Made by a program: the position numbers and the translations under genes. A DNA stretch of 64,000 nucleotides from Rubellicoccus peritrichatus. GTDB lineage: Bacteria; Verrucomicrobiota; Verrucomicrobiia; Opitutales; Cerasicoccaceae. The first letter of the stretch is position 1. Each line of letters opens with the position of its first letter. The notes beneath the pieces were generated by a model. The model saw only the letters and a list, made by a program, of their open reading frames with translations. It was not told the DNA's origin and ran no database searches. The DNA is taken from positions 4,645,001-4,709,000 of the forward strand of contig NZ_CP136920.1 in NCBI RefSeq assembly GCF_033100135.1, given 5' to 3'. Below, in pieces: positions 47,385 to 62,364 of this stretch.

Positions 47385-49856
47385 ATGTCACTACTTACTC
47401 GCATTAATAGCATGTTCTCTCAAATTTTTAAATTCTTTGTGATCATTCACTTTTTACACGCCCCACTTCTCTCATCTCCCCGAACAGAGATATTTCTAAA
47501 GGAAAATTGGCTGTTTCAACGTGGGCAAAATAACGGTGCTGAACAGGTTGGCTTTGACGATTCCGAATGGGAACCTGTAACCATACCCCACGACTGGGCA
47601 ATCAAAGGCCCATTCGACAGAGAAATCGACATACAGGACGTCCGCATCACCCAGAACCTTGAGCAAGAAGCTTCAGAAAAGACCGGCAGAACAGGCGCGC
47701 TCCCGCACATTGGTCAAGGCTGGTATCGTAAGACCTTTGACCTTCCCGACCTGAAAGATGATCAAAAAGTCCTTATCCTTTTCGAAGGCGCTATGTCCGA
47801 ACCTCAAGTCTATCTTAACGAAAAAAAGGTCGGAGAGTGGAACTACGGCTACAACTACTTCTATTTCGACATCACCGATGCAATACTTCGGGACGAGCCA
47901 AATCTACTCGCTGTGCATCTAACGAATCACCCTCAATCGTCTCGATGGTACCCAGGTGCTGGCCTTTATCGAAATGTCCGCCTGATCGTTAAAGACAAGG
48001 AGAGCATTGATCAATGGGGTCAGTTCGTCACGACTCCTCAAATCACCGATGATTGGGCTAAGGTGAATGTGAAGACTCGATTCAGCGGAGAAGGGTTAAG
48101 CCTCGTGACAACCATCTTCGACATGGAGAACAACATCGTTGCTAAACACGAAGCTGAACCGCCCTTTGGCAATGAGTTCGATCAGAATATTCTAATCGAC
48201 CAACCAAAGCTATGGAGCCCTGAAACGCCTTACCTCTACAAAGCAGTTACTAAGCTTCTCAAAAACGGCGTGCTCAAAGATGAGATAACGACGACCTTTG
48301 GAGTGCGAACGATAGAATACAATCCCGAAACGGGTTTCAGCTTGAACGGGCAAGTTCGTAAATTCAAAGGCGTCTGCCTGCACCACGATCTAGGGCCACT
48401 CGGAGCTGCAATCAACAAGACAGCCCTTCGTCGCCAAATGCGAATCATGAAGGAAATGGGCTGCGATTCGATTCGAAGCGCTCATAACATGCCGTCAATC
48501 GAACAACTCGAGTTAGCAGACGAGATGGGAATCATGTTTCTCGCCGAAAGCTTCGACGAATGGGCCAAGCCGAAAGTCCCTAACGGCTACAACAGATATT
48601 TCGAAACAGACGCCGAGAAGGACATCATCAATCTGGTCCATGCGACCCGCAACCACCCAAGTATTGTGATGTGGAGCTCAGGCAATGAAGTGCCGGACCA
48701 GCACGGAAGCGACGGTGTGAAACGGGCCAAATGGCTGCAGGAAATTTTCCACCGCGAGGACCCCACCCGCCCGGTCACCGTTGGCATGGATCAGGTCGAG
48801 GCAGTCATGGAAAACGGTTTTGGCGCCATTATGGATGTTCCCGGGTTAAATTATCGAGTCCATCTTTACGAAGAGGCCTACGAACGCTTTCCCCAAGGTT
48901 TCCTCCTCGGTTCCGAAACGGCATCGACGGTGAGCTCGCGTGGTATTTACAAATTTCCTGCCGAAAAGCTGAAGCATGTTACGCACCCGGACAATCAATG
49001 CTCTTCGTATGATTTGGAGTATTGCAACTGGTCCAACCTGCCGGATGACGATTTCGTTTTACAGGATGACAAAGACTGGGTGATTGGTGAGTTCGTCTGG
49101 ACCGGCTTTGATTACCTCGGTGAGCCGACGCCCTATCAGGGAATCTGGCCGGCCCGCAGCTCTTACTTTGGAATTTGTGATTTAGCAGGCCTCCCCAAAG
49201 ACCGATACTACCTCTACCGCAGTCGGTGGAACACAGAATCCCCCACACTACATATGCTGCCTCACTGGAACTGGGAAGGTCGCGAAGGAGAAACCACCCC
49301 CGTCTTTGTCTACACAAGCTATGACAGTGCTGAACTGTTCGTGAACGGAAAAAGCATGGGAGTTCAAAAGAAGCACGGAGCGACACCACAAAATCGCTAC
49401 CGATTGATGTGGACGGATGTGACGTATGAGCCCGGAACAATCAAGGTCTTAGCATACGATGAAAATGGTGATCCTGTAGCCGAGAAGGAAACCCATACCG
49501 CAGGCGAGCCCTACCAAATTATCTTGGAGGCGGACCGCACTGAACTGATAGCAAACGGAGAAGATTTATCATTCATCACTGTTTCGGTAGTGGATAAAAA
49601 CGGCATCCCCTGCCCCACTGCAACCAATCGGCTTCACTTCGAAGTAAGCGGCGCCGGAGTCTACCGCGCTGCCTGTAACGGCGACGCGACCTCACTCGAA
49701 ATGTTTCATGAGCCCACCATGAAGCTGTTCAGTGGTAAATTGGTCGTCATTGTTCAAAGCACCAACGAATCCGGAGAAATTAAGCTAAGTGTAAGTGGAA
49801 ACGGCTTGAAAGCTGAGAGCATTCAACTCGTTTCCACCTCAGAAACGGTGATCTAA
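47385..49856 (+). CDS. Secreted GH2 beta-galactosidase-like enzyme 2
   Basis: An 823-residue exported enzyme; the signal is MFSQIFKFFVIIHFLHAPLL with cleavage near LSS. GH2 order: jelly roll (VTIPHDWAIKGPF, GWYRKTFDL, VYLNEKKVG), Ig-like domain, barrel with acid/base Glu435 in IVMWSSGNEVPD and nucleophile Glu511 in FLLGSETASTVSS, then C-terminal Ig-like domains (VYTSYDSAELFVNGKSMG). An extra loop between residues 78 and 105 separates it from the enzyme encoded opposite. The two are not close paralogues. This subtype, with a WxGFDYLGEPTPY motif, is common in marine galactan loci. The target is probably a beta-linked galactose. Confidence 0.93.
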   Translation: MSLLTRINSMFSQIFKFFVIIHFLHAPLLSSPRTEIFLKENWLFQRGQNNGAEQVGFDDSEWEPVTIPHDWAIKGPFDREIDIQDVRITQNLEQEASEKTGRTGALPHIGQGWYRKTFDLPDLKDDQKVLILFEGAMSEPQVYLNEKKVGEWNYGYNYFYFDITDAILRDEPNLLAVHLTNHPQSSRWYPGAGLYRNVRLIVKDKESIDQWGQFVTTPQITDDWAKVNVKTRFSGEGLSLVTTIFDMENNIVAKHEAEPPFGNEFDQNILIDQPKLWSPETPYLYKAVTKLLKNGVLKDEITTTFGVRTIEYNPETGFSLNGQVRKFKGVCLHHDLGPLGAAINKTALRRQMRIMKEMGCDSIRSAHNMPSIEQLELADEMGIMFLAESFDEWAKPKVPNGYNRYFETDAEKDIINLVHATRNHPSIVMWSSGNEVPDQHGSDGVKRAKWLQEIFHREDPTRPVTVGMDQVEAVMENGFGAIMDVPGLNYRVHLYEEAYERFPQGFLLGSETASTVSSRGIYKFPAEKLKHVTHPDNQCSSYDLEYCNWSNLPDDDFVLQDDKDWVIGEFVWTGFDYLGEPTPYQGIWPARSSYFGICDLAGLPKDRYYLYRSRWNTESPTLHMLPHWNWEGREGETTPVFVYTSYDSAELFVNGKSMGVQKKHGATPQNRYRLMWTDVTYEPGTIKVLAYDENGDPVAEKETHTAGEPYQIILEADRTELIANGEDLSFITVSVVDKNGIPCPTATNRLHFEVSGAGVYRAACNGDATSLEMFHEPTMKLFSGKLVVIVQSTNESGEIKLSVSGNGLKAESIQLVSTSETVI

Positions 49857-50011
49857 AAACTTGTTCTCGACGCCCAACACACTGAATCAAAACGAGATCG
49901 ATTTCAGTAGGCTTATAAGCATAGATTCAAGCGACTGTCCTGCGAGTATCCAATGAATCGTTACGGCGTATGCGCAGTGATAGAGAAGACGAAATCATCC
50001 TTATTATCCTT

Positions 50012-51928
50012 CTACCAGAAGATCGCGTAGAGAACCAAAGTAAGTACCACGACACCGATACCGGCTACCTTCGCACCTGAAGATGATTCTAATTCGATCT
50101 CTTCGTTCACTGGCATCTGGACAGGCTCTTGCATCGGCCGCAGAAGCGTCAACACGAGCCCGATCACAATAACCAGACCCAGCGTGATCGCCATCCGGTT
50201 AAGGAATGCGATGTCGGTTGCGAAGACGAGAAGAGCACCATAAATCGCAATGCTCGCAACCATACCTAAGACGCCAAAATAGCGAGGCGTCCTGGGAGAG
50301 AAGAAGCCAAAGATAAAAACAGCAAGAATACCCGGTGATATAAAGCCCTGAAATTCTTGGATGTATGAAAAAATACTATCAAACTTATTGAGAGAAGGTG
50401 CGATCAAGCCAGCAACGATGACAAATAATAAGACGAAGCCCCTTCCGACTTTCACAAGTGTTGCGGGATCCTTCTGTCCAGTAAACTTGGAGTAGAGATC
50501 CATCGTCGCGATAGTCGATGCAGAGTTAAGCATCGAAGCCAGCGAACTAATCACGGCCCCACTCAAGGCCGCAAGAACGAACCAGGAGATCAAAGGTTTC
50601 GGCTGAATAAGATTTCGAACCAGAATTGGAAATGCCGCATCATAGTCATAGGACTTAAGTGTCCCAGCGCTCTGCGCGCCACCCTCGATAGCCTGAGCGG
50701 CAAAAGAGTTGATCTGTTTGACAGAAACAACTGGAGATGGGGCAACGCCGGCAACCACTGCATTGACCCTGAGAATCTGGGCAGCCAGATCTGGATGGGT
50801 TTCGACAAATTGTTCATCAACATCGAAAACCTGATCATCACCAAGCCTCTCAACCATAGCTTGATTAGTCTCTGCCATCGATTTCTTAAGATCACCGCTA
50901 AATAGGTTGAACGCCAACATACCCGGAATAACAACAATGAAAGGAATAATCAGTTTAAGGGCTGCGGCAAAAACGATTCCTCGCTGCCCCTCAGCAAGGG
51001 ATTTAGAACCAAGCGTTCGTTGCACGATGTACTGATTCAGCCCCCAATAGTAAAGATTCGGTATCCATAAGCCGATTATAAGCGCAGTCCAAGGGATATC
51101 GGAATCCTCTTTGGGCCGTATCATATGTACTTTACCTCCAGATCCATTGGGTCCGTTCTGGGCAATCGCTTCGCCATCTACTCCGTCATTGAGCAGCATA
51201 AATCGCTCCCAAGCACGTGCTTTCTCAATCTGCTCGATGGTCGCATCCGAGTTTGCAACTTTTGTTAGAATCAACTCTTCAGCGGGTTTATCCATGAGCA
51301 CATTGAACGCCAGATACATGACGATGGCACCGCCAACAATCAAAGCTGCACCCCAAATTAAGTCCGTCCATGCACACGCTTTGAGTCCACCAATGAAAAC
51401 ATAGAATGCTGCAAAAAGAGCGATCAACCAGCACATTGCAGTCAGGCTGTTTAAAACTGGCACTTCGTGGTAATACTCAGAAACAAACTTGGCGCCCGAA
51501 AAGATGACTGATGATGTTGTAACAAAAACAAGTGTAACTATCATCGGTATCGCCATCGACAAACGCGCAATTCCATTGAAACGATACTCCAAAAACTCGG
51601 GGATAGTGTAGAGTCCTGCCTTGAGAAATTTCGGCAGGAACCAAAATGCGACAAAAACCAAAGTGATGGCGGCCATCCATTCGTAAGAGGCGATGGCCAT
51701 ACCGAGCCAATTCGCTGAAGCCCCCGACATGCCAACGAACTGTTCTGTTGAAATGTTCGCCGCAATGAGCGAAAAGCCAACCAGCCACCAAGTCAATCCA
51801 CGGCCAGCAAGAAAGTAGTCAGAAGCACCTTTGTCACCACTGGTGTCCTCATCCCGGCTTTTCCATATTCCGAGTGCGATGACACCGATAACAGCAACAA
51901 CAAAGAGGGTAATTTCTAATAAAATCAT
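50012..51928 (-). CDS. SSS-family sodium:solute (sugar) symporter
   Basis: A 638-residue permease of the SSS/SGLT family with about 14 helices. Marks: YFLAGRGLTWWLVGFSLIAA, NISTEQFVGMSGASANWLG, WFLPKFLKAGLYTIPEFLEY, YYWGLNQYIVQRTLGSKSLA, and helix motifs SSLASMLNSASTIATMDLYS. Two soluble insertions (about 220-275 and 340-425) are acidic. It should import a monosaccharide with sodium, fitting a marine host. It converges with GH2 gene 2 and lies downstream of the P450 operon on the same strand, separated by 446 bp. It is the likely uptake route for galactose or methyl-galactose. Confidence 0.92.
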   Translation of the reverse strand: MILLEITLFVVAVIGVIALGIWKSRDEDTSGDKGASDYFLAGRGLTWWLVGFSLIAANISTEQFVGMSGASANWLGMAIASYEWMAAITLVFVAFWFLPKFLKAGLYTIPEFLEYRFNGIARLSMAIPMIVTLVFVTTSSVIFSGAKFVSEYYHEVPVLNSLTAMCWLIALFAAFYVFIGGLKACAWTDLIWGAALIVGGAIVMYLAFNVLMDKPAEELILTKVANSDATIEQIEKARAWERFMLLNDGVDGEAIAQNGPNGSGGKVHMIRPKEDSDIPWTALIIGLWIPNLYYWGLNQYIVQRTLGSKSLAEGQRGIVFAAALKLIIPFIVVIPGMLAFNLFSGDLKKSMAETNQAMVERLGDDQVFDVDEQFVETHPDLAAQILRVNAVVAGVAPSPVVSVKQINSFAAQAIEGGAQSAGTLKSYDYDAAFPILVRNLIQPKPLISWFVLAALSGAVISSLASMLNSASTIATMDLYSKFTGQKDPATLVKVGRGFVLLFVIVAGLIAPSLNKFDSIFSYIQEFQGFISPGILAVFIFGFFSPRTPRYFGVLGMVASIAIYGALLVFATDIAFLNRMAITLGLVIVIGLVLTLLRPMQEPVQMPVNEEIELESSSGAKVAGIGVVVLTLVLYAIFW

Positions 51929-52374
51929 GAGACTGGAGAAAAGTATATTTGGGAAAATCCGGACTTCTTGTCCGCTATTTTAAAAACTAAATTCGACAAA
52001 GAACTGAAGGTTATTTAATATGCAAATAAAATTTATAGTAAGAAAAAAAAGTATGCGATGTGTTGCGTCAAGCATTATATTTGAAGTCTACTATTTCTAA
52101 AAAACAAACATAGACTAAGCCGAACGCGAACTGCGGTCGAGGCGATGCTACCATAACTCTAGAACCCAATCTCCAAGATATCCGTCGGTTGGCAAATGAT
52201 TCTTCAAAGGGATTTTCGATGGCAAGATCATCTTCCAGCGACGCATAGAAAATCCCTCCACGAACGTATTGCTTAATCACACGGAAAGTCTTACGCTGAC
52301 GAACAGTAATACTCAGCAAGAACTGTAAAGACTTGGAAATGTTAATATGTGAGTTGGTAGTCAAATGGATAGGA
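51929..52374. other. Intergenic region upstream of the symporter gene
   Basis: 446 bp without a convincing gene. The right third is AT-poor and one minus-strand frame stays open (ending at 52068), but it begins inside the esterase gene in another frame, so it is treated as chance. The left part (about 51940-52060) is AT-rich and is the likely promoter of the symporter. Confidence 0.45.
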
Positions 52375-53187
52375 TTATAACTGCTCGGCAAAGAACTTGA
52401 AAGTCTTGACCACATGCGTTTCCCAGTATGACCATTCGTGGCCGCCAGGAAATTCTTGGTAGGTAAATTCCACTCCTGCGTCACCTAATGCTTTGGCCAG
52501 CGTGCGGTTGTGTTTGATGAGCAAGTCGTCAACTCCACAGTCAAAACGGAAAGGACCGATACTGTCGCAGTTGGCGAGTATCGCGTCCACAACATTGCGG
52601 TCAATGCCTTCTACTGCCGGATAGGCTTCCATCGGCTCCTCAACGAAGAGCGGCATCTGGTCTAGCGATGTGATGGACGAATGCCCTGCAAAGGCCTTGT
52701 AGCGATCGTGGTATTTAGCTCCCAAGCGAAGCGCCCCAAAGCCACCCATCGACAGCCCGCCGATGAAGTGAGGCGCGTCAATGTCGTTGCCGACATTCTC
52801 ACTAACGGCCTGTGGCACGTCCTGTGAGATCCAAGCTTCAAAGTCCTTGTCGATATGCGGCACGTAGCCACTACCATCACCCCAGAGACCATCCGAAGGC
52901 ATGACAAGAAGCATAGGTGGCACTTCGCCCACATCAATGAGACGCTGCAGAGTCATGTGCGCCTTGCCCATCAATGACCAGATCCAGTGGCTGCCATAGA
53001 CACCATGTAAAAGCGTGACCACAGGCAGGTCTGTGCGCCCTTCGGCTTGCTGCGGGATGTAGATCGAAAGATCAGCACGTGCCTTAAGCGCCGGGCTTTT
53101 GACGGTAACCAAGCGCAGCATTCCCCGCTCACAAGGAATGTCGCCAACCTCGGTCGTACGGAAATAGGATGCTCGACAATCAACCAT
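52375..53187 (-). CDS. Esterase-D-like alpha/beta hydrolase
   Basis: A 270-residue cytoplasmic serine hydrolase. LPVVTLLHGVYGSHWIW supplies the oxyanion strand, GGLSMGGFGALRLG the nucleophile elbow (GxSxG), CGVDDLLIKHN the acid, and PGGHEWSYW the catalytic histidine. The family includes S-formylglutathione hydrolase (FGH) and tributyrin/carbohydrate esterases. As the last gene of the P450-reductase-dehydrogenase operon and without a signal peptide, a formyl-thioester hydrolase role in formaldehyde disposal is attractive, but the elbow is GLSMGG rather than the GHSMGG usual in FGH, so a sugar acyl esterase is an equal alternative. Confidence 0.85.
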   Translation of the reverse strand: MVDCRASYFRTTEVGDIPCERGMLRLVTVKSPALKARADLSIYIPQQAEGRTDLPVVTLLHGVYGSHWIWSLMGKAHMTLQRLIDVGEVPPMLLVMPSDGLWGDGSGYVPHIDKDFEAWISQDVPQAVSENVGNDIDAPHFIGGLSMGGFGALRLGAKYHDRYKAFAGHSSITSLDQMPLFVEEPMEAYPAVEGIDRNVVDAILANCDSIGPFRFDCGVDDLLIKHNRTLAKALGDAGVEFTYQEFPGGHEWSYWETHVVKTFKFFAEQL

Positions 53188-53237
53188 TTAAAAACAACAA
53201 CTTTAAATTACATGTATCCATATTGGTTTTCAGAAAT

Positions 53238-54347
53238 TCACTCAAATGAAATCACGCCTTTGGCGTTACGACCAGCCATCATGTCGTCGATCGCTTGCTG
53301 CAAATCTTCGAGTGGATAACTACGGGTAATGAGCTCGTCGAGCTTGAGCTGTTTGCGTTCGTATAGTTCCAACAGCTTTGGAAAATCAAATTCGGGCATC
53401 GCTCCACCGTAAAGCGGGTTGATGTAAAGTTTGTCCCACTCAAAAAGGTTCATATCGATTGTAATTTCTTCCTCGATACCGGACACCTGCACAGCCGTTC
53501 CAGCACTACGCACCATGGCGAGCGGAGCAGCACCGAGCGCAGGCACACCTGTGCACTCGAAGGCGTAGTCCGCACCGCGGCCGCCGCAAAGCTCTTTCAC
53601 TTCTTCAGAGGCCTGCATGAGGCCCTTGTCTTCTCGGGAAGCCAATATCGTATGGGTCGCGCCAAACTGTTTTGCCATCTCAAGACGCTGCTTGTTAACA
53701 TCGATCGCGATAACCTTGGCCGCACCAGAAATGTGTGCGCCCTGTATCGAGTTGAGACCGACGCCGCCAGTGCCGAGCACAACGGCAGAACTACCAGCGG
53801 CGAGCTTGGCAGTATTAACCACCGAACCATAACCGGTCATCACGCCACATCCAATAATGCAGGCTGAGGTGAAAGGGATCTCAGTGGTGTATGGGATGAC
53901 GGCTTCCTTTTTGACTACTGTGTGGCTGCTCAATGTACCGATGTTGAAGGATCGCTTAACTGGTTCGCCCTTCCACATACTGGCTTCGGGATGCGCCATG
54001 CCTTCGAACTTATTTTGACTAGTGACCTGCGAGTTTACCTCACAAATGTTCTGTTTGCCGTTCTGGCACTGGAAGCAATCCTTACACGGGATCGCCCAAT
54101 TCAGGAGTACCTTGTCGCCAGCCTTTACATGGTCAACGCCTTCGCCCACCGCTTCAACGACGCCGGCGCCCTCATGCCCCATGACGTGTTCGAAGCCCCA
54201 AGTAAGAGAATCGTAATCCGTATGACACAGTCCTGACGCCTTGATGGCGACGAGGACTTCTCCACGCTTTGGCGGGTTGACTTGAATGGTTTCGATAGTA
54301 AAAGAACCCTTACCATCGGAAATAGCAGCACTTGCTTGGATAGACAT
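53238..54347 (-). CDS. Zn-dependent alcohol dehydrogenase, class III-like
   Basis: A 369-residue MDR dehydrogenase. Catalytic zinc ligands appear in ASGLCHTDYDS (Cys) and MGHEGAGVVEAVGEGV (His/Glu). The structural zinc lobe is CKDCFQCQNGKQNIC with four cysteines. The cofactor fold is VVLGTGGVGLNSIQGAH followed by VIAIDVNKQRLEMA (Asp, NAD-preferring). Overall it resembles class III ADH/formaldehyde dehydrogenase, but the segment between the catalytic Cys and GHEGAG is shorter than in FrmA-type enzymes, so glutathione dependence is uncertain. It lies 40 bp after the reductase and 50 bp before the esterase. It may oxidise formaldehyde adducts or a sugar alcohol. Confidence 0.9.
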   Translation of the reverse strand: MSIQASAAISDGKGSFTIETIQVNPPKRGEVLVAIKASGLCHTDYDSLTWGFEHVMGHEGAGVVEAVGEGVDHVKAGDKVLLNWAIPCKDCFQCQNGKQNICEVNSQVTSQNKFEGMAHPEASMWKGEPVKRSFNIGTLSSHTVVKKEAVIPYTTEIPFTSACIIGCGVMTGYGSVVNTAKLAAGSSAVVLGTGGVGLNSIQGAHISGAAKVIAIDVNKQRLEMAKQFGATHTILASREDKGLMQASEEVKELCGGRGADYAFECTGVPALGAAPLAMVRSAGTAVQVSGIEEEITIDMNLFEWDKLYINPLYGGAMPEFDFPKLLELYERKQLKLDELITRSYPLEDLQQAIDDMMAGRNAKGVISFE

Positions 54348-54387
54348 AAAAAGTGTTAGGTGGGAAATAGATTGATTAGCTCATCAG

Positions 54388-56124
54388 CTAGTAAACGTCG
54401 CGGGCATAGCGTTTTTCTTTCCTGAGGTTTCTGATGTAGTCTTGGGCCTCGTCCTCAGATTTTACTCCATGAACTTGGACGACTTCATGGAGCGCCTTAT
54501 CGACATCTTTGGCCATCCGAAGAGCATCGCCACACACAAAGAAGTACCCACCCTCTTGCAACCACTGCCAAATCTCCGCCCCACTTTCGAGCATGAGGTG
54601 CTGCACGTATAGTTTCTCTTCCTGGTCACGCGAAAAAGCAAGGTCCAGCTTATTGAGCAGACCACTCTCCTTCCAACCTTCCAAAAGCTCATCGTAAAGG
54701 TAGTCCGTCGCACGATAGGGATTTCCGAAAAGCAGCCAATTTTTCCCCTTCGCTCCCCTCACCTCACGCTCTTCCAAAAAGGCTCGAAAGGGAGCAATCC
54801 CAGTTCCCGGCCCTACCATTATCATCGGTGCATCATCATCCGCAGGAGGACGGAAAGCCTTGTTGGTCTGCACAAAAACTCCCGGCTGAGAATCTTCACT
54901 CCGGTTGGCCAGGTAAGTCGAGCAGACGCCTCCCCGGGAGCGACCATGCGTTTCATAGGTTACAACTCCCACCGTCAGGTGAACTTCATCGGGGTGAGCC
55001 TTGGGGCTGGAAGCAATGGAATAAAGTCGCGGATGCAGCTTTTTTAAAATGGCAACGAACTCTTCTCCATTCTGGAATTTCACCGGATAGTCGATCACGA
55101 GATCAACTAACTCACGTCCCCAGAAAAACTTCTCCCAAACTTCTTTTTTATCTTCTTCAATAATCGATTTCAGCACTTCTGAACTACTGCGCTTCTGCCA
55201 ATCGGTGACCAGCTTCTTGCTTAAGGTCCGGATGTCGTAACTCTTCAGCAAGGCCTCACGCAACGGCGCGTTTCCACCATCAGGCAGTGGAACCTCAGCT
55301 TCGGAATCCAAAGAAAGCACCGCGAGGATCTCATCGACCACTTTTTCGTCGTTCACCGGATAGACTCCAAGCGCATCTCCAGCTTCGTATTCCAAGCCGG
55401 ATCCCCTGAGTGACAATTCAACGTGGTGTGTGGACTTGAAGGCACCTTCGCGATTGAGATCGTAGTTCTTGAGAATCGAGGCAGGGAAAGGTTTATTCTT
55501 TCCAAAAGTCTCCCCATTCACCGAGGTCACCTGAGCCTTCGATGTCGTAGCTCCAGTTCCGAGCACGTCCAAAACACCTTTCTTCCAAAGCTCGAAAGGC
55601 TGATCAAAATCAACGTCACAATCCACACGCTCGTGAATACGCTCTCCCCCCAACTCGGCGAGACGTTGGTCGACAATTTTACCCGCTTGGCAAAAGTCAG
55701 GATATTGAGAATCGCCCAAAGCTAGAACGGAAAATTGGAGCCCTTCAACCCGTGGCGCGGATTCCGCGCAAAGGGCATCGACAAAATCGACTGCATTGTC
55801 GGGCGGCTCACCATCACCGTAGGTACTGGTCACCACGAGGAGGTTCTTCTCCGAAGCCAAATTTGCGACCTCGTAATCGACCACTTCAATGACAGACGGT
55901 TCAAAGCGACCTTCCGCAAGTGCAGCTGCCATCTGATTGGCAAGTCCTTCTGCATTTCCAGTCTGTGAGCCCCATAGAATAGTCACCGGAACCGCTGGTC
56001 CCTCATCCAGTGGCAACTCAAAGGAAGCAAGCTGCTTAGCGAATAGGCCAAATTGTTTGGCAAGGTGGTTATTGAGCCAAACAATTTGTTCATCGGTGAA
56101 CGGTGCTTTCTCAGGGCCAATCAT
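54388..56124 (-). CDS. NADPH diflavin reductase (CysJ/CPR type), probable P450 partner
   Basis: A 578-residue soluble flavoprotein. Its FMN flavodoxin domain has TILWGSQTGNAEGLA (48-62), VVTSTYGDGEPPDNA and ALGDSQYPDFCQ. The FAD/NADPH module has RLYSIASSPKAH (FAD), RGGVCSTYLAN, MVGPGTGIAPFRAFLEER (NADPH pyrophosphate), FGNPYRATDYLYDELL and FFVCGDALRMAKDV, ending RKEKRYARDVY with the usual C-terminal aromatic. ATG 56124 is chosen; the longer open frame to 56346 would overlap the P450 gene. It resembles the sulfite reductase alpha subunit, but no CysI gene is present and it starts 44 bp after a P450 gene. Electron donor to that P450 is the parsimonious role. Confidence 0.92.
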   Translation of the reverse strand: MIGPEKAPFTDEQIVWLNNHLAKQFGLFAKQLASFELPLDEGPAVPVTILWGSQTGNAEGLANQMAAALAEGRFEPSVIEVVDYEVANLASEKNLLVVTSTYGDGEPPDNAVDFVDALCAESAPRVEGLQFSVLALGDSQYPDFCQAGKIVDQRLAELGGERIHERVDCDVDFDQPFELWKKGVLDVLGTGATTSKAQVTSVNGETFGKNKPFPASILKNYDLNREGAFKSTHHVELSLRGSGLEYEAGDALGVYPVNDEKVVDEILAVLSLDSEAEVPLPDGGNAPLREALLKSYDIRTLSKKLVTDWQKRSSSEVLKSIIEEDKKEVWEKFFWGRELVDLVIDYPVKFQNGEEFVAILKKLHPRLYSIASSPKAHPDEVHLTVGVVTYETHGRSRGGVCSTYLANRSEDSQPGVFVQTNKAFRPPADDDAPMIMVGPGTGIAPFRAFLEEREVRGAKGKNWLLFGNPYRATDYLYDELLEGWKESGLLNKLDLAFSRDQEEKLYVQHLMLESGAEIWQWLQEGGYFFVCGDALRMAKDVDKALHEVVQVHGVKSEDEAQDYIRNLRKEKRYARDVY

Positions 56125-56168
56125 AGAAATTTCATAAGGGACTTTGAAGGAATCAGGCGTAAATAGAT

Positions 56169-57320
56169 TCACGCATTGCGTGAGAAGAAACGTACGTGAA
56201 CAGACTCGTAACCGACCTGCCGCTCGTAGGAAGATTCTTTCTCCATCTTGGGTTCTGACTCGATTAGAACCATGCGCTCTACATGCTTGCAAAGCGACTT
56301 CATCAAGCTTCGAAAAAGAAGACGGGCATGGTGTGCGCCGAGGCAATTATGACGACCAAATCCGTAGCCAATGTGGGGATTTGGGTCCCGATCCAACTTA
56401 AGTTCATCGGGGTCTTCAAATACCGTTTCATCCCGATTTGCAGAGGGCCAACAAATTGCAACCCGTCCTCCTTCAGGAACTTCCTGTTCTGCTAATTTTG
56501 CCATATGCGGACACTTCCGAGTGATGGCAGTCAACGGACTAACATAACGCACGAATTCTTCCCCAGCGAGATTGATTCGCGATTCGTCTTCCCTGAGGAA
56601 AGACAGCGAATCCGGATCCTCGGCAAGATGGGCAAAAATGCTCGCTGCCGTATTGATGATGGTGTCTCTCCCTCCCGCAAATGTCACATTGGCAAATCCT
56701 TGCTTCTCGTCGAAGGTCAACTTGCGACCACGGAATTCAACCTCGTTGAGGTAGCTGAAAAAGTCACCTCCAGGCTCCTTTTCTGCCTGCTTGAAACGAC
56801 TGCCGGTGTATTGCTCAAGCAAGTGTCCATCGCCCGCATCGTCATCCCGGTCGTGGAATACGTGCAGTCCCCAACTGATCCAAATATCAGCCTCGGACTC
56901 CGGCATCCCCAGCAATAGAGCAAGCGCCTTACTCTGCATCGGCAGCACAAATCCTCGCACTGCTTCAATTTCCCCCAGACTCACGGCGTCCCGAACCATT
57001 TTGTCGATCATCTGCTCGATCGCAGCGATGAACTTCGCATCACTCCTCGGCTTGTTGAAGAGCGGCTGAACCAGGGCCCGGAAATCGGCATGGTCCGGCG
57101 GGTCGATCTCAAGCGGAAGCTGCCTTACTCCACGCACATCCGCTTCCGAGTGCAAAACACACATGAGTGGATTATCGCTGCTGAAAGTCTCCCAGTCTTT
57201 CGCCGTCTCCTTAGCATCCTCATGGCGCAACACGAGCGGCACATTTTCACCATCACAATCGACATTCAAAACTCCCTCTTGGGTACGAGCTTTACGAAAT
57301 GGGTCAGAATGATCCGGCAT
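56169..57320 (-). CDS. Cytochrome P450 monooxygenase
   Basis: A 383-residue soluble bacterial P450 (no membrane anchor). The I-helix oxygen-binding motif is AGGRDT (215-220), the K-helix ExxR lies in EEFVRYVSP (254-262), and the heme-binding loop GYGFGRHNCLGAHHAR carries Cys326 as thiolate ligand. DPPDHADFRALVQPLF is the usual C-helix region. ATG 57320 (MPDHSDPFRKAR) is preferred over ATG 57371. It is first of a four-gene operon with diflavin reductase, dehydrogenase and hydrolase, flanked by galactan-type hydrolases. By analogy with marine Bacteroidetes P450s it may demethylate 6-O-methyl-galactose; other oxidations cannot be excluded. Confidence 0.95.
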   Translation of the reverse strand: MPDHSDPFRKARTQEGVLNVDCDGENVPLVLRHEDAKETAKDWETFSSDNPLMCVLHSEADVRGVRQLPLEIDPPDHADFRALVQPLFNKPRSDAKFIAAIEQMIDKMVRDAVSLGEIEAVRGFVLPMQSKALALLLGMPESEADIWISWGLHVFHDRDDDAGDGHLLEQYTGSRFKQAEKEPGGDFFSYLNEVEFRGRKLTFDEKQGFANVTFAGGRDTIINTAASIFAHLAEDPDSLSFLREDESRINLAGEEFVRYVSPLTAITRKCPHMAKLAEQEVPEGGRVAICWPSANRDETVFEDPDELKLDRDPNPHIGYGFGRHNCLGAHHARLLFRSLMKSLCKHVERMVLIESEPKMEKESSYERQVGYESVHVRFFSRNA

Positions 57321-57371
57321 AATAGTTGAACTTTTTTGGGATACGCGGTCATTCGACCAAATATAAACCAT

Positions 57372-57997
57372 TTACTATAGCAACTAGCCCTATTTCACGC
57401 AAACGAGATGATAACCACAACTGATACTATTTTCACACTTTAGAATGAAACGAGTCGCTTTATGGTTTTTGATAAACCGTCCAAAAGTCATCAAGACACA
57501 ATCTTGAGCAAAATAATTATCCGAGCTGATATAAAAAAAGTATAGAGTAAGATTCGACCGCCAAAACTACAAAATACGAAATCCGATAGAACGATTCATC
57601 AGGGTGCACTCCATAGGTCGTTACCATCGTGCCAACGGGCGCAGTAAGTTCCGTAACCTGATTAAACTTAATCCGATTTCACCAAGGCCTTGAACTCGAC
57701 CATCTGCACAGTCTCAAGATTAGTGGAACCTAACTTACTTTAGGAGTGACTAACTCGTATATTAGGATATTCCTATTTAATTTCGTTTATCAGCCTAAAA
57801 TGCCATTACAATACCTAAAATCAAAGTAATCGGACTGGCATAAGGCTAAAAATATGATAGCTTCTGGACAAACCTACAGGCTTTTTCGTCAGCAAACGAA
57901 GTTTGATCCGTAGCCATGAAAAATTGGAAAAAATTTTTGTTAAAAATTTGCCCAATAAGGTTGCAATTACAAATTATTATATACTTTTCTATAAGCC
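57372..57997. other. Large divergent intergenic region between P450 operon and GH42-like gene
   Basis: 626 bp without an intact gene. The right 120 bp (57880-57997) is strongly AT-rich and probably holds the GH42-like promoter. On the minus strand at about 57570-57740 two short frames read protein-like (LETVQMVEFKALVKSD then stop; VTELTAPVGTMVTTYG), possibly a frameshifted relic. No homology was recognised. Operator sites for co-control of the two divergent units would be expected here. Confidence 0.4.
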
Positions 57998-60358
57998 TTG
58001 AAAAAAACATCAAATGTATCTTTATTTGGATATCAACTATTCGTAGTTTTATTCATTGCGGTCGGATTTAGTCCATTGGCAAACGCAGAGAGCGAATGGG
58101 AGCAACTACTTGATAGTCTCAATGATCGACGAGAGGTCCTGGCGCACATGATTAGTGATGCACAAGAGCTGGAGATGGCGACTGAGTATGCGGAAACATC
58201 GGCTCTTGTGATCGACCTTTTCATCGCCGCAGCGGCCCAAGACAAAAAGAATCCGGAGCGAGTCCGTGAAATTTTCAGCAATCTGTGGTTCTACGACCGC
58301 TTCGACCCGAAATACACCACGGAGCTCCCCGAACGGGAGCTAAGAGCCTGCATCGCAGTTGCGGATCACGCGATTGATGAGTTGCAAAAACAATTGGACC
58401 ACGAACTTGAGCTGCGCCCTACTCCAGACCTCGGCAAAGGGACTGTCATTCTTAAAGACGGCAACTACCAGATCGATTCCGTTCCTTTTTTCCCGAGCAC
58501 TTTAATCTGGGCGCCGAGAACTCAAATCATGGCGGATGTCTTTGGGCGCCTCGGCGCAAGTTTCTACTCACTAAACGATCTCAATCCGGACGGGACGGCG
58601 AACTACCATCTAAATTCACAGATTCAGCAAATCAAAAAACAACAAGCACTTAATACGGCGCCCATCAGCTTTTTGACTTTGCACGAACTTCCGAAATGGC
58701 TGCGAGAGAACCATCCTGATGTGAGTCAGGGCGGTCGATTCTTTGTTCAATACGACATTGATAACCCTTACGTAACGCAAGCGATCAAAAGACTCTACGA
58801 GGTCATGATCCCGCCACTGGCGGAGGCCTGTGGAGAGACTCCGATGGTCCATCTTCTGGCAAATGAGCCCCATTTTGCAACGATCAAGGGTGGGTGGGAG
58901 AGCAACGGCTTGTCGGATTACACCGTCCGACACTTTCATGACTGGCTGAAGAAGAAATATCTCACTGTCACAAAGCTGAACCATTACCACGGAGAGAATT
59001 ATCGTGGTTTCGATGAGGTCTTATTTACCCTCAAAATGCCTGTCGAAGAACGTCAAGTCGATCCCAATCTGCGCGGAACTGCCGTATGGTATGACTGGAT
59101 ACGATTCAACCACGACCGGGTAAACCAATGGTTCACCTTTCTGAAAGAACAGTGCCAGGCGAACGACCCGAATCAATCCCCCGTATCCATCAAAGTTCTC
59201 GGATACAGTCTCTCTCAGGCCACCCGGGATGGCGGCATGGATATGGAGTACCTCACCAAACTTCAGGACATCGTAGGTGCAGACCTGCGCTGCACACCGC
59301 TCGGTGCCGGAATCAATGGAAAGACGGAACTTGGAGATATCCCGAAGACCGCTTGGCAGTCACAATTTTCCTACGACTGGGCGGAGCAAACGATGTTTCT
59401 GGACTTCTCCAAATCGCTGTGTCCGGAAAAACTATTTTACGATTCCGAATGGCACGGTTTCAGTTCCGTAAGTTGGCGCCATTGTGAGATTGAGAGAGAC
59501 TACGTGCGATCAGCTCTCTGGCTGGCATTTAGCCATGGGATGGGAATGATCGACGCATGGCTCTGGGGTCGAAAAGAAGACGGTGCCCTCAACAATTGGG
59601 CAGACCACTTCTGTGAGTTCAGTACTCAACCGATTGCAGCCGATGCCTTTGCCCGCACGATGAAAGAACTAAATGCATTTGCGCCGCAAGTGCTAGAATT
59701 CAGCAAAGTAGATAGGACCTTCATGATCTACTACTGCGAAGAAGCTGCAATACAGGACCAAAACTACACCAGAGGCCTGCATGATGCCTATGAGGCACTG
59801 AAGCTCCTCAACTGGCGCTGCGGTTTTACGACACCTTCGGAAATCCATAAATTAGATCCCGCAAAGCAGACTGTTGTCGTCACTCCAATCTCCCACATTA
59901 ACGATAACAGTCTGCGGCAGCTCCGGGAATTTGCCCAAGCGGGTGGCAAAGTGGTTTTAACAGATGCAGAAGGTAGCTTCCTGAAGTCAGAGCTCGCAAT
60001 CCCGCGAAATGAGAACCTTAGTTTCGCATACAAATCACTTCTCCACGGCAACTACAAGGAGCTGATGGAAACTTTCGAAAATGAGATTTCACACTTAAAT
60101 ACATCCAACGATCTGCCGGTTTCAATTATCGATTTGAACGGGGATCCATCTTTTGGAGTCATCGTCCAACAGATCCAGAATTATCAGAGCGGTAAGCGCT
60201 ACATTCTTTTAAATAATATAAGCAAAGAGACCAAAACGGTGAAGATCGCGACTGAAAAAAGTGGCTTTAAGGAAATAACCGATATAATCACTGCGAAGCC
60301 TGTTAGCTCAGACATCGAGCTCCGGCCCAAGGAAGTTCTACTTCTGGAATGCCAGTAA
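57998..60358 (+). CDS. Secreted GH42-like beta-galactosidase (clan GH-A)
   Basis: A 786-residue exported enzyme. The signal peptide is KKTSNVSLFGYQLFVVLFIA to about PLANA|E. The start must be TTG 57998: TAA is in frame two codons upstream and the next Met lies beyond the signal. The barrel has VHLLANEPHF (candidate acid/base Glu after Asn), HFHDWLKKKYLTVTKLNHYH (GH42-style WLK-LN motif) and FYDSEWHGF (candidate nucleophile). A Rossmann-like domain resembling the GH42 trimerisation region follows (QTVVVTPISHINDNSLRQL, GGKVVLTDAEG). GH50-type agarase is the main alternative. It is divergent from the P450 operon. A decayed copy of its 3' end lies at 62.5 kb. Confidence 0.75.
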   Translation: MKKTSNVSLFGYQLFVVLFIAVGFSPLANAESEWEQLLDSLNDRREVLAHMISDAQELEMATEYAETSALVIDLFIAAAAQDKKNPERVREIFSNLWFYDRFDPKYTTELPERELRACIAVADHAIDELQKQLDHELELRPTPDLGKGTVILKDGNYQIDSVPFFPSTLIWAPRTQIMADVFGRLGASFYSLNDLNPDGTANYHLNSQIQQIKKQQALNTAPISFLTLHELPKWLRENHPDVSQGGRFFVQYDIDNPYVTQAIKRLYEVMIPPLAEACGETPMVHLLANEPHFATIKGGWESNGLSDYTVRHFHDWLKKKYLTVTKLNHYHGENYRGFDEVLFTLKMPVEERQVDPNLRGTAVWYDWIRFNHDRVNQWFTFLKEQCQANDPNQSPVSIKVLGYSLSQATRDGGMDMEYLTKLQDIVGADLRCTPLGAGINGKTELGDIPKTAWQSQFSYDWAEQTMFLDFSKSLCPEKLFYDSEWHGFSSVSWRHCEIERDYVRSALWLAFSHGMGMIDAWLWGRKEDGALNNWADHFCEFSTQPIAADAFARTMKELNAFAPQVLEFSKVDRTFMIYYCEEAAIQDQNYTRGLHDAYEALKLLNWRCGFTTPSEIHKLDPAKQTVVVTPISHINDNSLRQLREFAQAGGKVVLTDAEGSFLKSELAIPRNENLSFAYKSLLHGNYKELMETFENEISHLNTSNDLPVSIIDLNGDPSFGVIVQQIQNYQSGKRYILLNNISKETKTVKIATEKSGFKEITDIITAKPVSSDIELRPKEVLLLECQ

Positions 60359-60573: not shown

Positions 60574-62364
60574 ATGATCAAAAAGACTACTTTTGCCGCA
60601 TTTTGTTTCGCTGGCCTCCTACCCATAGCGAGTGCTAAGACGCTTTCAATTGCTGACTTCGGCGCCAAACCCGGAGGACCGGATACGATTCCGGCTCTCA
60701 AGCAAGCGCTTGCTGCCATCAAGAAAGAACAGGCTACGAAACTCATTTTTCCTTCCGGAACCTACCACTTCTTTCCTGATTATGCGGACGAACGGTATTG
60801 TTTCATTTCCAACAACGACGAAGGGCTAAAACGAATCGCCTTCAACTTGAAAGACTTTGAGAATCTGGAGATCGATGGAAACGGCTCTCTGTTCATGTTT
60901 CATGGCAAGATCAATCCGGTCATTCTCGAAGGCTCCAGCAACATTCGCCTGAAGAACTTTGCCATCGACTTCAAGCGCTCCTTTCACAGCGAAGGAGTGA
61001 TCGTTGCCGACCCGGAAGAAGGACTCGACCTCAGGATCGATCCAACTGTCTTCCCCTACGAAATTGCCGGCGGAATTCTCACCTTTACCGATGGTGATCA
61101 AACCGAGGAACGAAAGACCACAACTAAGTCCAAAAAGATCACCTTCCCTTACGGCGGTGGCCTTGAGTTCGATCCGGAGAAGAAAGAACCCGCTTACCTC
61201 GCCCGCGATCTTTGGGTGGGCCCCGCTGCGATAGCCAAGCCACTTGGAGACGGAGTCATTCGGATCATGGATCCAAAACTTACTGGCACCCCAGGAAACA
61301 TATTCATCTTCGGCCCAAGCCACCGGGAGCATCCCGGCATTGTCATATCCCGTTCCCAGGACACGGTCATTGAGGACATCACGATTCACCACGCTGCCGG
61401 AATGGCCCTCATTGCACAGCTCAGTCACAACGTGCAAATCCTTCGCATGAAAACCGGAGCTCGCGAGGGCTCGGGGCGCCTCCTCAGCGCCACCGCAGAT
61501 GCCACTCATTTCTCTAATTGCACCGGAAAAATCGAAATCGGGTACTGTAATTTTCAGGTTCAAAAAGACGATCCCTCAAACCTCCATGGTTTGTATGCCC
61601 GCATCTCTGCACAAGAAGACGATAAGACTTTTGTCATCGAAATGATCCATCCCCAACAATATGGCATTGACTTCGTAGACCCAAACGACGAGCTCGAATT
61701 TGTGAATAGCAGGAGCTTGGTCACTTATGGAACAGGTAAAGTCGCTTCGGTAGAACGCATCAACAAACAACTCACCCGTGTTGTCATGACAGAAGCCGTT
61801 CCAAAGGACTTTAAAGTTGGCGATGCTATCGCCGAGATCCGTGACTATCCAGAAATTCACATTCACAACTGCCGCATGCATGGCAACCGCGCTCGTGGGC
61901 TCCTGCTCAATTGTCGGGGTAAAACGCTCATCGAGGATAATCATTTCCATGTCCCCGGCACAGCCATCCTCTTCGAAAGCGACGCTTCTTTCTGGTATGA
62001 ACAAGGCGGAGTGCGAGACTGCACCATCCGGGGCAACGTTTTTGAAAACGGAAACTTCGGCCCACTGGAATGGGGCACCGGAGTGATCGAAGTGCGTGCG
62101 GGAATCGAAGACGAATTCAAGCCTAGTAGCCGCTACAATCAAAACATCACCATTGAGGATAACACCTTCATCCTCTTTGACCGGAATGCAGTGGTTCGGA
62201 CATTCTCTGTCGATGGACTCACTATCCGCAACAACACGATTATATACTCCGAAGCCTATCCAAATCGGGGACTCAAAGACGAACTCTTTGATATTTCATA
62301 CAGCGACAACGTCGTGATCGAAAACAATAAAGTTCAAGAGCTACCAGAAAATCTGACCGAGTAG
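60574..62364 (+). CDS. Secreted GH110-like alpha-1,3-galactosidase (beta-helix)
   Basis: A 596-residue exported enzyme with signal peptide TTFAAFCFAGLLPIASA. It is a right-handed parallel beta-helix: LIFPSGTYHFFPDYA, SNIRLKNFAIDFKRSF, TVIEDITIHHAAGMALIAQL, HIHNCRMHGNRARGLLLNCR, NITIEDNTFILFDRNAVV. The ATADATHFSNCTGKIEIG segment followed by QKDDPSNLHGLYARI matches the catalytic region of GH110 exo-alpha-1,3-galactosidases, with candidate Asp residues. Marine GH110 enzymes act on alpha-galactosyl ends of host or algal glycans including carrageenan-derived material. It lies 215 bp after the GH42-like gene on the same strand. Confidence 0.8.
   Translation: MIKKTTFAAFCFAGLLPIASAKTLSIADFGAKPGGPDTIPALKQALAAIKKEQATKLIFPSGTYHFFPDYADERYCFISNNDEGLKRIAFNLKDFENLEIDGNGSLFMFHGKINPVILEGSSNIRLKNFAIDFKRSFHSEGVIVADPEEGLDLRIDPTVFPYEIAGGILTFTDGDQTEERKTTTKSKKITFPYGGGLEFDPEKKEPAYLARDLWVGPAAIAKPLGDGVIRIMDPKLTGTPGNIFIFGPSHREHPGIVISRSQDTVIEDITIHHAAGMALIAQLSHNVQILRMKTGAREGSGRLLSATADATHFSNCTGKIEIGYCNFQVQKDDPSNLHGLYARISAQEDDKTFVIEMIHPQQYGIDFVDPNDELEFVNSRSLVTYGTGKVASVERINKQLTRVVMTEAVPKDFKVGDAIAEIRDYPEIHIHNCRMHGNRARGLLLNCRGKTLIEDNHFHVPGTAILFESDASFWYEQGGVRDCTIRGNVFENGNFGPLEWGTGVIEVRAGIEDEFKPSSRYNQNITIEDNTFILFDRNAVVRTFSVDGLTIRNNTIIYSEAYPNRGLKDELFDISYSDNVVIENNKVQELPENLTE

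Follow-up and report, generated by a model that had tools for sequence, protein, structure and literature searches.

The 64,000-nucleotide window of the Rubellicoccus peritrichatus genome analyzed here (contig NZ_CP136920.1, positions 4,645,001 to 4,709,000) raises the question of how the cytochrome P450 of a compact operon obtains its electrons and which molecule it oxidizes. Four genes, all on the minus strand within positions 52375-57320, encode the P450, an NADPH diflavin reductase, an alcohol dehydrogenase (ADH) and an esterase, with gaps of 44, 40 and 50 bases; the reading frames agree exactly with a preliminary description made from the sequence alone, which reported four leftward genes with 40-50 bp gaps. 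We took the ATG at 57320 as the start of the P450 gene (an in-frame alternative lies at 57371). The longest reading frame of the reductase opens with a TTG at 56346, inside the P450 gene, which it would overlap; the ATG at 56124 is the likelier start. Judging from sequence comparisons, the operon probably represents the marine cassette for 6-O-methyl-D-galactose demethylation in a two-protein, class II-type form: the pathway is a known one, and the redox variant, in which a diflavin reductase replaces two carriers, appears to be new.

In the mechanism that we propose, the diflavin reductase would take a hydride from NADPH and pass electrons singly through FAD and FMN to the P450 heme. The P450 would hydroxylate the 6-O-methyl group of galactose freed from porphyran or agar, leaving a hemiacetal that would break down into galactose and formaldehyde. 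ADH and esterase would act as the usual accessory pair, the ADH being the member needed for good growth of Zobellia. A CysJ-like reductase from a lineage mostly linked to nitrite reductases probably displaced the ferredoxin/ferredoxin reductase pair, and after this swap the four genes would have moved between families as one block.

The P450 family and its electron donors

Domains of the window proteins were called with Pfam and NCBIfam profiles. Among the 418 solved sequences matched by the P450, the best was 6g5o/6g5q (315.5 bits, E = 4.9e-93), followed by the CYP125 ancestor (136.9 bits). The 6g5o chain is a Zobellia-type enzyme, given that the Zobellia russellii P450 matches it at 732.7 bits; we take it to be the 6-O-methyl-galactose P450 that was described from Z. 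galactanivorans in 2018. The window protein carries a heme loop (GFGRHNCLG), an I-helix motif (AGGRDT) and an ExxR motif. In a tree of 97 P450s, 91 family members split from the six other P450s that made up the outgroup, with a Shimodaira-Hasegawa-like approximate likelihood ratio test (SH-aLRT) support of 100. All 12 Bacteroidota-type proteins have the polar residues E59, R63, Q67, E71, Q129, H153 and D219, as do at least 77 of the 78-79 other family members, against 0-1 of 5-6 outgroup P450s. A steroid or terpene enzyme, which the preliminary description had held out as an alternative, is ruled out by the lead of 6g5o over the next match and by the family split, which place the window P450 far from such hydroxylases. 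PMC10033563 describes the 6-O-methyl-galactose P450 of Z. galactanivorans as crystallised. The ADH has solved relatives from this pathway: it scores 556.4 bits against 8h2a (E = 2.5e-166) and 536.2 bits against 8h2b, with the next match at 212.7 bits, and 8H2A and 8H2B are given in PMC10033563 as the codes of FoADH and ZoADH.

We scored the neighbors of the P450 gene at 91 loci of the family, from which 10 duplicate loci had been removed before the tree and the counts, with P450 matches below 250 bits dropped. The adjacent electron donor is a diflavin reductase at two of these loci (the window and L041 of genome G210), a ferredoxin plus a ferredoxin reductase at 12 (11 by script and L046 by eye, because its ferredoxin lies behind the reductase, past the script's limit) and a ferredoxin alone at 10. 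At the other 67, for example L042 and L043, neither a donor nor an ADH was seen nearby, some flanks being short: 10 of the 91 loci have less than 600 bases on one side, 33 have a flank shorter than 5.5 kb on one side or both, and at 16 of the 33 neither flank exceeds about 1.5 kb, so that an ADH or a donor farther off would be missed. The loci are related by descent, and the counts are therefore not independent. An ADH (at least 45% identity) occurs near 14 of the 91 P450 genes, and all 14 have an adjacent electron donor. Outside this set, G930 (L251) has an ADH-esterase pair convergent to a P450 gene (49% identical), with no match to a ferredoxin, ferredoxin reductase or diflavin reductase in 13 kb.

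Nine loci, eight from Bacteroidota and one from a gammaproteobacterium, hold genes for AraC, P450, ferredoxin, ferredoxin reductase, ADH and esterase together. The order P450-ferredoxin-ferredoxin reductase-ADH-esterase with an AraC gene nearby is the most frequent (L093, L095, L098, L100, L101, L104 and L108); in L094 and L096, ADH-esterase is found on the opposite side, L102 has the ADH alone, and L099 is without an ADH. The Microscilla plasmid pSD15 (L294) carries AraC, P450-ferredoxin-ferredoxin reductase and ADH-esterase in the vicinity of a beta-agarase and an arylsulfatase. Two loci of the host's own order (L053 and L193) combine AraC with ferredoxin-P450-ADH-esterase, and L041 has AraC followed by P450-diflavin reductase-ADH-esterase; no AraC gene lies beside the window operon, others being farther away. 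These gene orders place the diflavin reductase gene in the slot of the ferredoxin and ferredoxin reductase genes, as the preliminary description had proposed. The same four-gene order, for which it had suggested a search in other Verrucomicrobiota, was found in G210 among the 91 loci scored. Because G210 repeats both the genes and their order, and Bacteroidota repeat the frame from P450 to ADH-esterase, the four-gene operon is more than a chance assembly.

A P450-ferredoxin-ferredoxin reductase cassette also occurs on the Catenovulum plasmid pCadTS8_2 (L293), where an IS1 transposase gene follows it.

Table 1. Genes of the P450 operon and neighboring genes in the window
Feature	Position	Strand	Basis
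Cytochrome P450, 383 aa, 6-O-methyl-D-galactose demethylase family	56169..57320	-	PF00067; best PDB 6g5o/6g5q
CysJ-type NADPH diflavin reductase (FMN + FAD), 578 aa	54388..56124	-	PF00258+PF00667+PF00175; 6efv
Zn-dependent alcohol dehydrogenase, close FoADH/ZoADH homologue	53238..54347	-	PF08240+PF00107; 8h2a/8h2b
Alpha/beta-hydrolase (esterase)	52375..53187	-	PF00756; weak likeness to S-formylglutathione hydrolase
SSS-family sodium:solute symporter, downstream neighbor	50012..51928	-	profile match
GH2 beta-galactosidase (GalB-like), neighbor	47385..49856	+	Pfam/NCBIfam
Second GH2	44630-46990		profile match
GH42-like hydrolase, neighbor	57998..60358	+	31.1 bits (cutoff 21)
GH110-like hydrolase (GLAA-B domains), neighbor	60574..62364	+	profile match

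Ancestry of the reductase and probable movement of the block

The reductase scores 638.7 bits against the cysJ model TIGR01931, under its cutoff of 668.15, and it matches the CysJ structure 6efv (E = 5.8e-130). It aligns with CysJ through the flavin and NADPH motifs SQTGNA, STYGDGEPPDNA, RLYSIASS, SRDQEEKLYVQ and a C-terminal RDVY. The host genome, a single contig of 5,798,774 bases, encodes three full CysJ-like proteins and a CysI at C1:3864269 (866 bits, over the cutoff), about 0.84 Mb from the window reductase. The canonical CysJ, at C1:3932050 (701 bits, over the cutoff of 668.15), is about 66 kb from CysI, the two being paired by family; another CysJ-like copy (C1:3796674) comes directly after a NirA-family protein, itself preceded by a molybdopterin-type protein that we labeled NasA by eye.

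In a first tree of 49 diflavin reductases (the window and 48 loci), the window and L041 proteins pair (100) inside a group with SH-aLRT 89. Of the 17 other members of this group, 14 are encoded near a NirA gene and the remaining three near a NasA-like gene; apart from L202, which has a long branch, the CysI-linked diflavin reductases fall outside it. In a careful tree of 47 sequences, from which L202 and the likewise long-branched L282 were omitted, the pair belongs to a clade of 20 (bootstrap/SH-aLRT 100/100), together with the 17 NirA- or NasA-linked copies and L279, whose gene lies by a glutamate synthase-like gene. Both trees are without L208, L224, L272, L283 and L284, where no diflavin reading frame was called. 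The order inside the clade is weakly supported (51/60 for L279 outside; 58/87 for L254 and L271 as sister pair), and the stem branch of the window/L041 pair is long (0.65 changes per site in the first tree, 0.69 in the careful one). Since the clade as a whole is supported at 100/100, the reductase likely descends from a mostly nitrite-linked CysJ-like lineage and may nest inside it.

Could the reductase, then, be an extra sulfite or nitrite reductase subunit that stands in the operon by accident? Its CysJ-like profile score and a clade made up mostly of NirA- or NasA-linked copies would suit such a subunit. However, both a canonical CysJ and a CysJ-like copy linked to NirA are encoded elsewhere in the genome, the window reductase is part of a conserved block with the P450, the ADH and the esterase, and it sits in the position that the ferredoxin and ferredoxin reductase occupy at other loci; we therefore consider an accidental placement very unlikely. 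A partnership with CysI, against which the preliminary description had asked for its proposal to be checked, is ruled out by the other CysJ over the cutoff elsewhere in the genome, and the window reductase groups with mostly nitrite reductase-linked copies.

Such reductases also occur in further settings. A NirA-family gene adjoins a CysJ-like gene at 14 loci of the order, including C1:3796671-3802430 of the host (L071), usually with a NasA-like gene, which suggests that nitrite reduction is driven there by a diflavin reductase. At L279 (G450) and L282 (G404), CysJ-like diflavin reductases are encoded beside genes resembling the glutamate synthase large subunit (PF01645); the two genes are convergent at L279 and lie on one strand, 5 bases apart, at L282. 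On balance, we lean toward the view that CysJ-type diflavin reductases are, in this lineage, a general and re-targetable electron plug, with paralogues wired separately to sulfite reductase, to nitrite/nitrate reductase, possibly to glutamate synthase and, in the window operon, to a sugar-demethylating P450, the last through a natural swap from class I to class II within a pathway that is otherwise conserved and with a donor from the mostly nitrite-linked lineage.

Window positions 52381-57326 align with L041 at 79.8% DNA identity over 4954 bases, and no alignment was found at E = 1e-5 for the rest of window positions 50001-58500. At the protein level, the window and G210 versions are 94% (P450), 92% (ADH), 82% (reductase) and 77% (esterase) identical, compared with 59% for the canonical CysJ pair and 53% for the nitrite-linked CysJ pair of the same two genomes. 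G210 belongs to a different family of the same order, and the P450 is absent from three other genomes of its family that were searched. Because the identity ends at the edges of the operon and the CysJ pairs match so much less closely, the four genes probably moved as one unit; the alternative is unusual constraint.

Substrate, surroundings and the accessory pair

Several observations weigh against our interpretation of the operon. As to the donor, the diflavin form is present at two loci only, with nearly the same operon, and the host genome encodes four Fer2 domains, two of which weakly resemble P450 ferredoxins (E = 9e-9 at best, against a small database) and thus leave some room for a ferredoxin route. 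The P450 would in that case be served by an unlinked ferredoxin and reductase, with the diflavin reductase as a helper or a relic, and the 67 loci without an adjacent donor imply that unlinked donors are probably common in this P450 family. On the other hand, no Reductase_C-type ferredoxin reductase was found in the host genome with a model that matched 3 of 14 control genomes, and the diflavin reductase is intact at both loci and about 81-82% identical between them, far above the other CysJ pairs. We give a ferredoxin-served P450 little credence and favor the diflavin reductase as its donor.

As to the substrate, the preliminary description had asked for the P450 to be compared in a tree with characterized 6-O-methyl-galactose P450s, and the kinship holds for the family and not for the clade. 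The Zobellia enzymes sit in a clade of 12 (support 99; 11 Bacteroidota and one gammaproteobacterium), and the window P450 lies outside it, sharing only about 40% identity with the Bacteroidota enzymes (38-42% across the Bacteroidota-type clade). Its own clade of 16 (support 100) consists of the window and G210 proteins, two P450s of G383/G035, eleven of family f81 and L044, which is ferredoxin-linked and has a sulfatase gene about 5 kb away. Thirteen of the 16 were scored as stand-alone, seven of them at loci whose flanks do not exceed about 1.5 kb; two (L042 and L043) lie, by eye, between lipA-like and valS-like genes. The low identity and the mostly stand-alone clade suggest that substrates may differ within it. 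The families near the operon are of galactosidase type (two GH2, a GH42-like and a GH110-like protein) plus a GH95, with no porphyranases among them, and the nearest GH86 gene is about 0.3 Mb away. A cluster at C1:4076614-4089944 (L249) holds five GH16 genes in 13 kb, three with CBM96, and one other gene among them; the two of its GH16 proteins compared with solved structures are both laminarinase-like and not porphyranase-like, which weakens the cluster as evidence for porphyran and tells against a simple porphyran picture.

It is therefore conceivable, if rather unlikely, that the redox pair is the same but acts, by demethylation or hydroxylation, on a different methylated sugar or small molecule encountered in algal galactan breakdown. 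The distance from the Bacteroidota enzymes, the stand-alone sister branches, some in non-sugar settings, and the lack of porphyranases next to the operon would all fit such a substrate. However, the ADH of the operon is homologous to that of the 6-O-methyl-galactose pathway, the family-wide polar residues are kept, and the genome encodes a porphyranase-like GH86 protein. The GH86 model PF18206 has 10 matches in the genome (nine reading frames by length) and none in 14 control genomes. Of the two GH86 proteins compared with solved structures, that of C1:5003455-5005341 is nearest to the GH86A beta-porphyranase 4aw7 (415 bits), and that of C1:5027359-5029245 is nearest to other GH86 chains, one of them named a beta-agarase; both genes are about 0.3 Mb from the operon. 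We infer that 6-O-methyl-D-galactose is the substrate.

The flanking GH2, GH42-like, GH110-like and SSS symporter genes named in the preliminary description were confirmed by profiles; no SSS symporter was found beside the G210 operon. The P450 is the only one in the host, as a genome search found no second, and a contig scan with the single P450 query gave 20 pattern matches, none a relative. The P450 family is common in the phylum: a survey of 387 of its genomes found matches at E = 1e-20 or better in 33, among which 24 (the host included) reach at least 42% identity, and a survey of the order found matches at E = 1e-60 or better in 68 of 372 genomes; 39 of the 69 order-survey matches have no locus entry, and neighbors were examined for part of those. 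P450s from the host's relatives of the same order and class interleave with named Verrucomicrobiota (Opitutia) in the tree. Elsewhere in the host genome, at C1:2989325-2990053 and upstream (L009, L153), a 941-aa frame seems to combine a Rieske-oxygenase-like start (by eye) with flavodoxin-like and Fer2 domains, a candidate for an unusual self-contained oxygenase.

The ADH contains a four-cysteine loop, CKDCFQCQNGKQNIC, and the esterase a GLSMGG motif. Neither protein resembles enzymes of formaldehyde oxidation at model strength: the ADH scores 231.1 against TIGR02818 (cutoff 543.95) and 243.9 against TIGR03451 (cutoff 512.9), and the esterase scores 33.9 bits against the S-formylglutathione hydrolase model TIGR02821 (cutoff 281.7). 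According to PMC10033563, homologous ADHs of Flavobacteriia show no activity with formaldehyde alone, nor with glutathione, mycothiol, bacillithiol, cysteine, CoA, ergothioneine or two named aromatic thiols, and an ADH knockout grows poorly on 6-O-methyl-galactose. Formaldehyde handling, which the preliminary description saw as built into the operon, is thus unsupported, and we rejected a dedicated formaldehyde route in view of the low model scores and these ADH tests. Nor are the two genes an addition made here, since PMC10033563 lists ADH and esterase as members of the published demethylation cluster.

The ADH occurs at 51% identity or more in 16 of 384 genomes of the class (the host included); an esterase homologue adjoins it at 11 of the 16 loci, and a P450 is near at four. 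At L250, L252 and L255 (G163, G763 and G760), ADH-esterase has no P450 beside it and follows genes for related proteins of an unnamed family (48-64% mutual identity). The member from G763 has a weak similarity to DUF455, below the cutoff, and no solved relative; no DUF455 match was found in that of G760 at E = 1e-5. In G163, a ferredoxin reductase-type (FNR) gene lies between the unnamed-family gene and the ADH, and in G763 an FdhF/YdeP-family oxidoreductase, seen once, comes after the esterase. Perhaps these genes provide another oxidative step that feeds ADH-esterase, which looks like a portable pair following different oxidative steps. The formate dehydrogenase-like neighbor in G763 would fit a C1 role dependent on a different thiol.

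Relation to known systems

Published versions of the pathway use a P450 with a ferredoxin and a ferredoxin reductase (PMC10033563, PMC12316285), and the discussion in PMC10033563 presents this route as NADH-driven. The phyla named for it in PMC12316285 are Pseudomonadota, Bacteroidota and Planctomycetota; Verrucomicrobiota are not named as hosts in the accessible text of that paper or of PMC10033563, where the one main-text match to 'Verrucomicrobi' is a reference title. A full-text literature search, with most subscription papers outside its scope, returned no sugar P450 with a diflavin reductase, which is not proof of an unreported variant. The finding thus places the pathway in a phylum for which these two papers, as far as their text was available, do not name it, and suggests the recruitment, for a heme monooxygenase, of a relative of nitrite reductase donors. 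Should reductase and P450 work together as we infer, the operon would represent a natural exchange of redox partners, with the same P450 family and accessory genes served by either type of donor. It would then offer a compact two-protein demethylase for algal sugars, and the features that make a P450 accept one electron donor or another would become directly testable.

The closest known counterpart is the system of Zobellia galactanivorans and Formosa agariphila, which shares with the window the P450 family, the ADH homologue, the esterase beside the ADH and a galactan-degrading host. Where that system supplies its P450 through a ferredoxin and a ferredoxin reductase, the window has one CysJ-type diflavin reductase; the hosts are of different phyla, and the window P450, at about 40% identity, falls outside the Bacteroidota-type clade. 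With CysJ and the NirA-linked diflavin reductases, the window reductase shares its domain make-up and motifs, and its clade consists mostly of NirA- or NasA-linked copies; its own neighbors are the P450, the ADH and the esterase instead of CysI, NirA or NasA, and its stem is long. Class II chains, which are tabulated for bacteria in a review (PMC9112060), offer the other comparison. In eukaryotic cytochrome P450 reductase (CPR) with its P450 and in P450 BM3, electrons pass from NADPH through FAD and FMN to heme, as they presumably do here. The window reductase is nearer to CysJ than to CPR, and whereas P450 BM3 is a fusion (PMC9687028), the window encodes two separate bacterial proteins.

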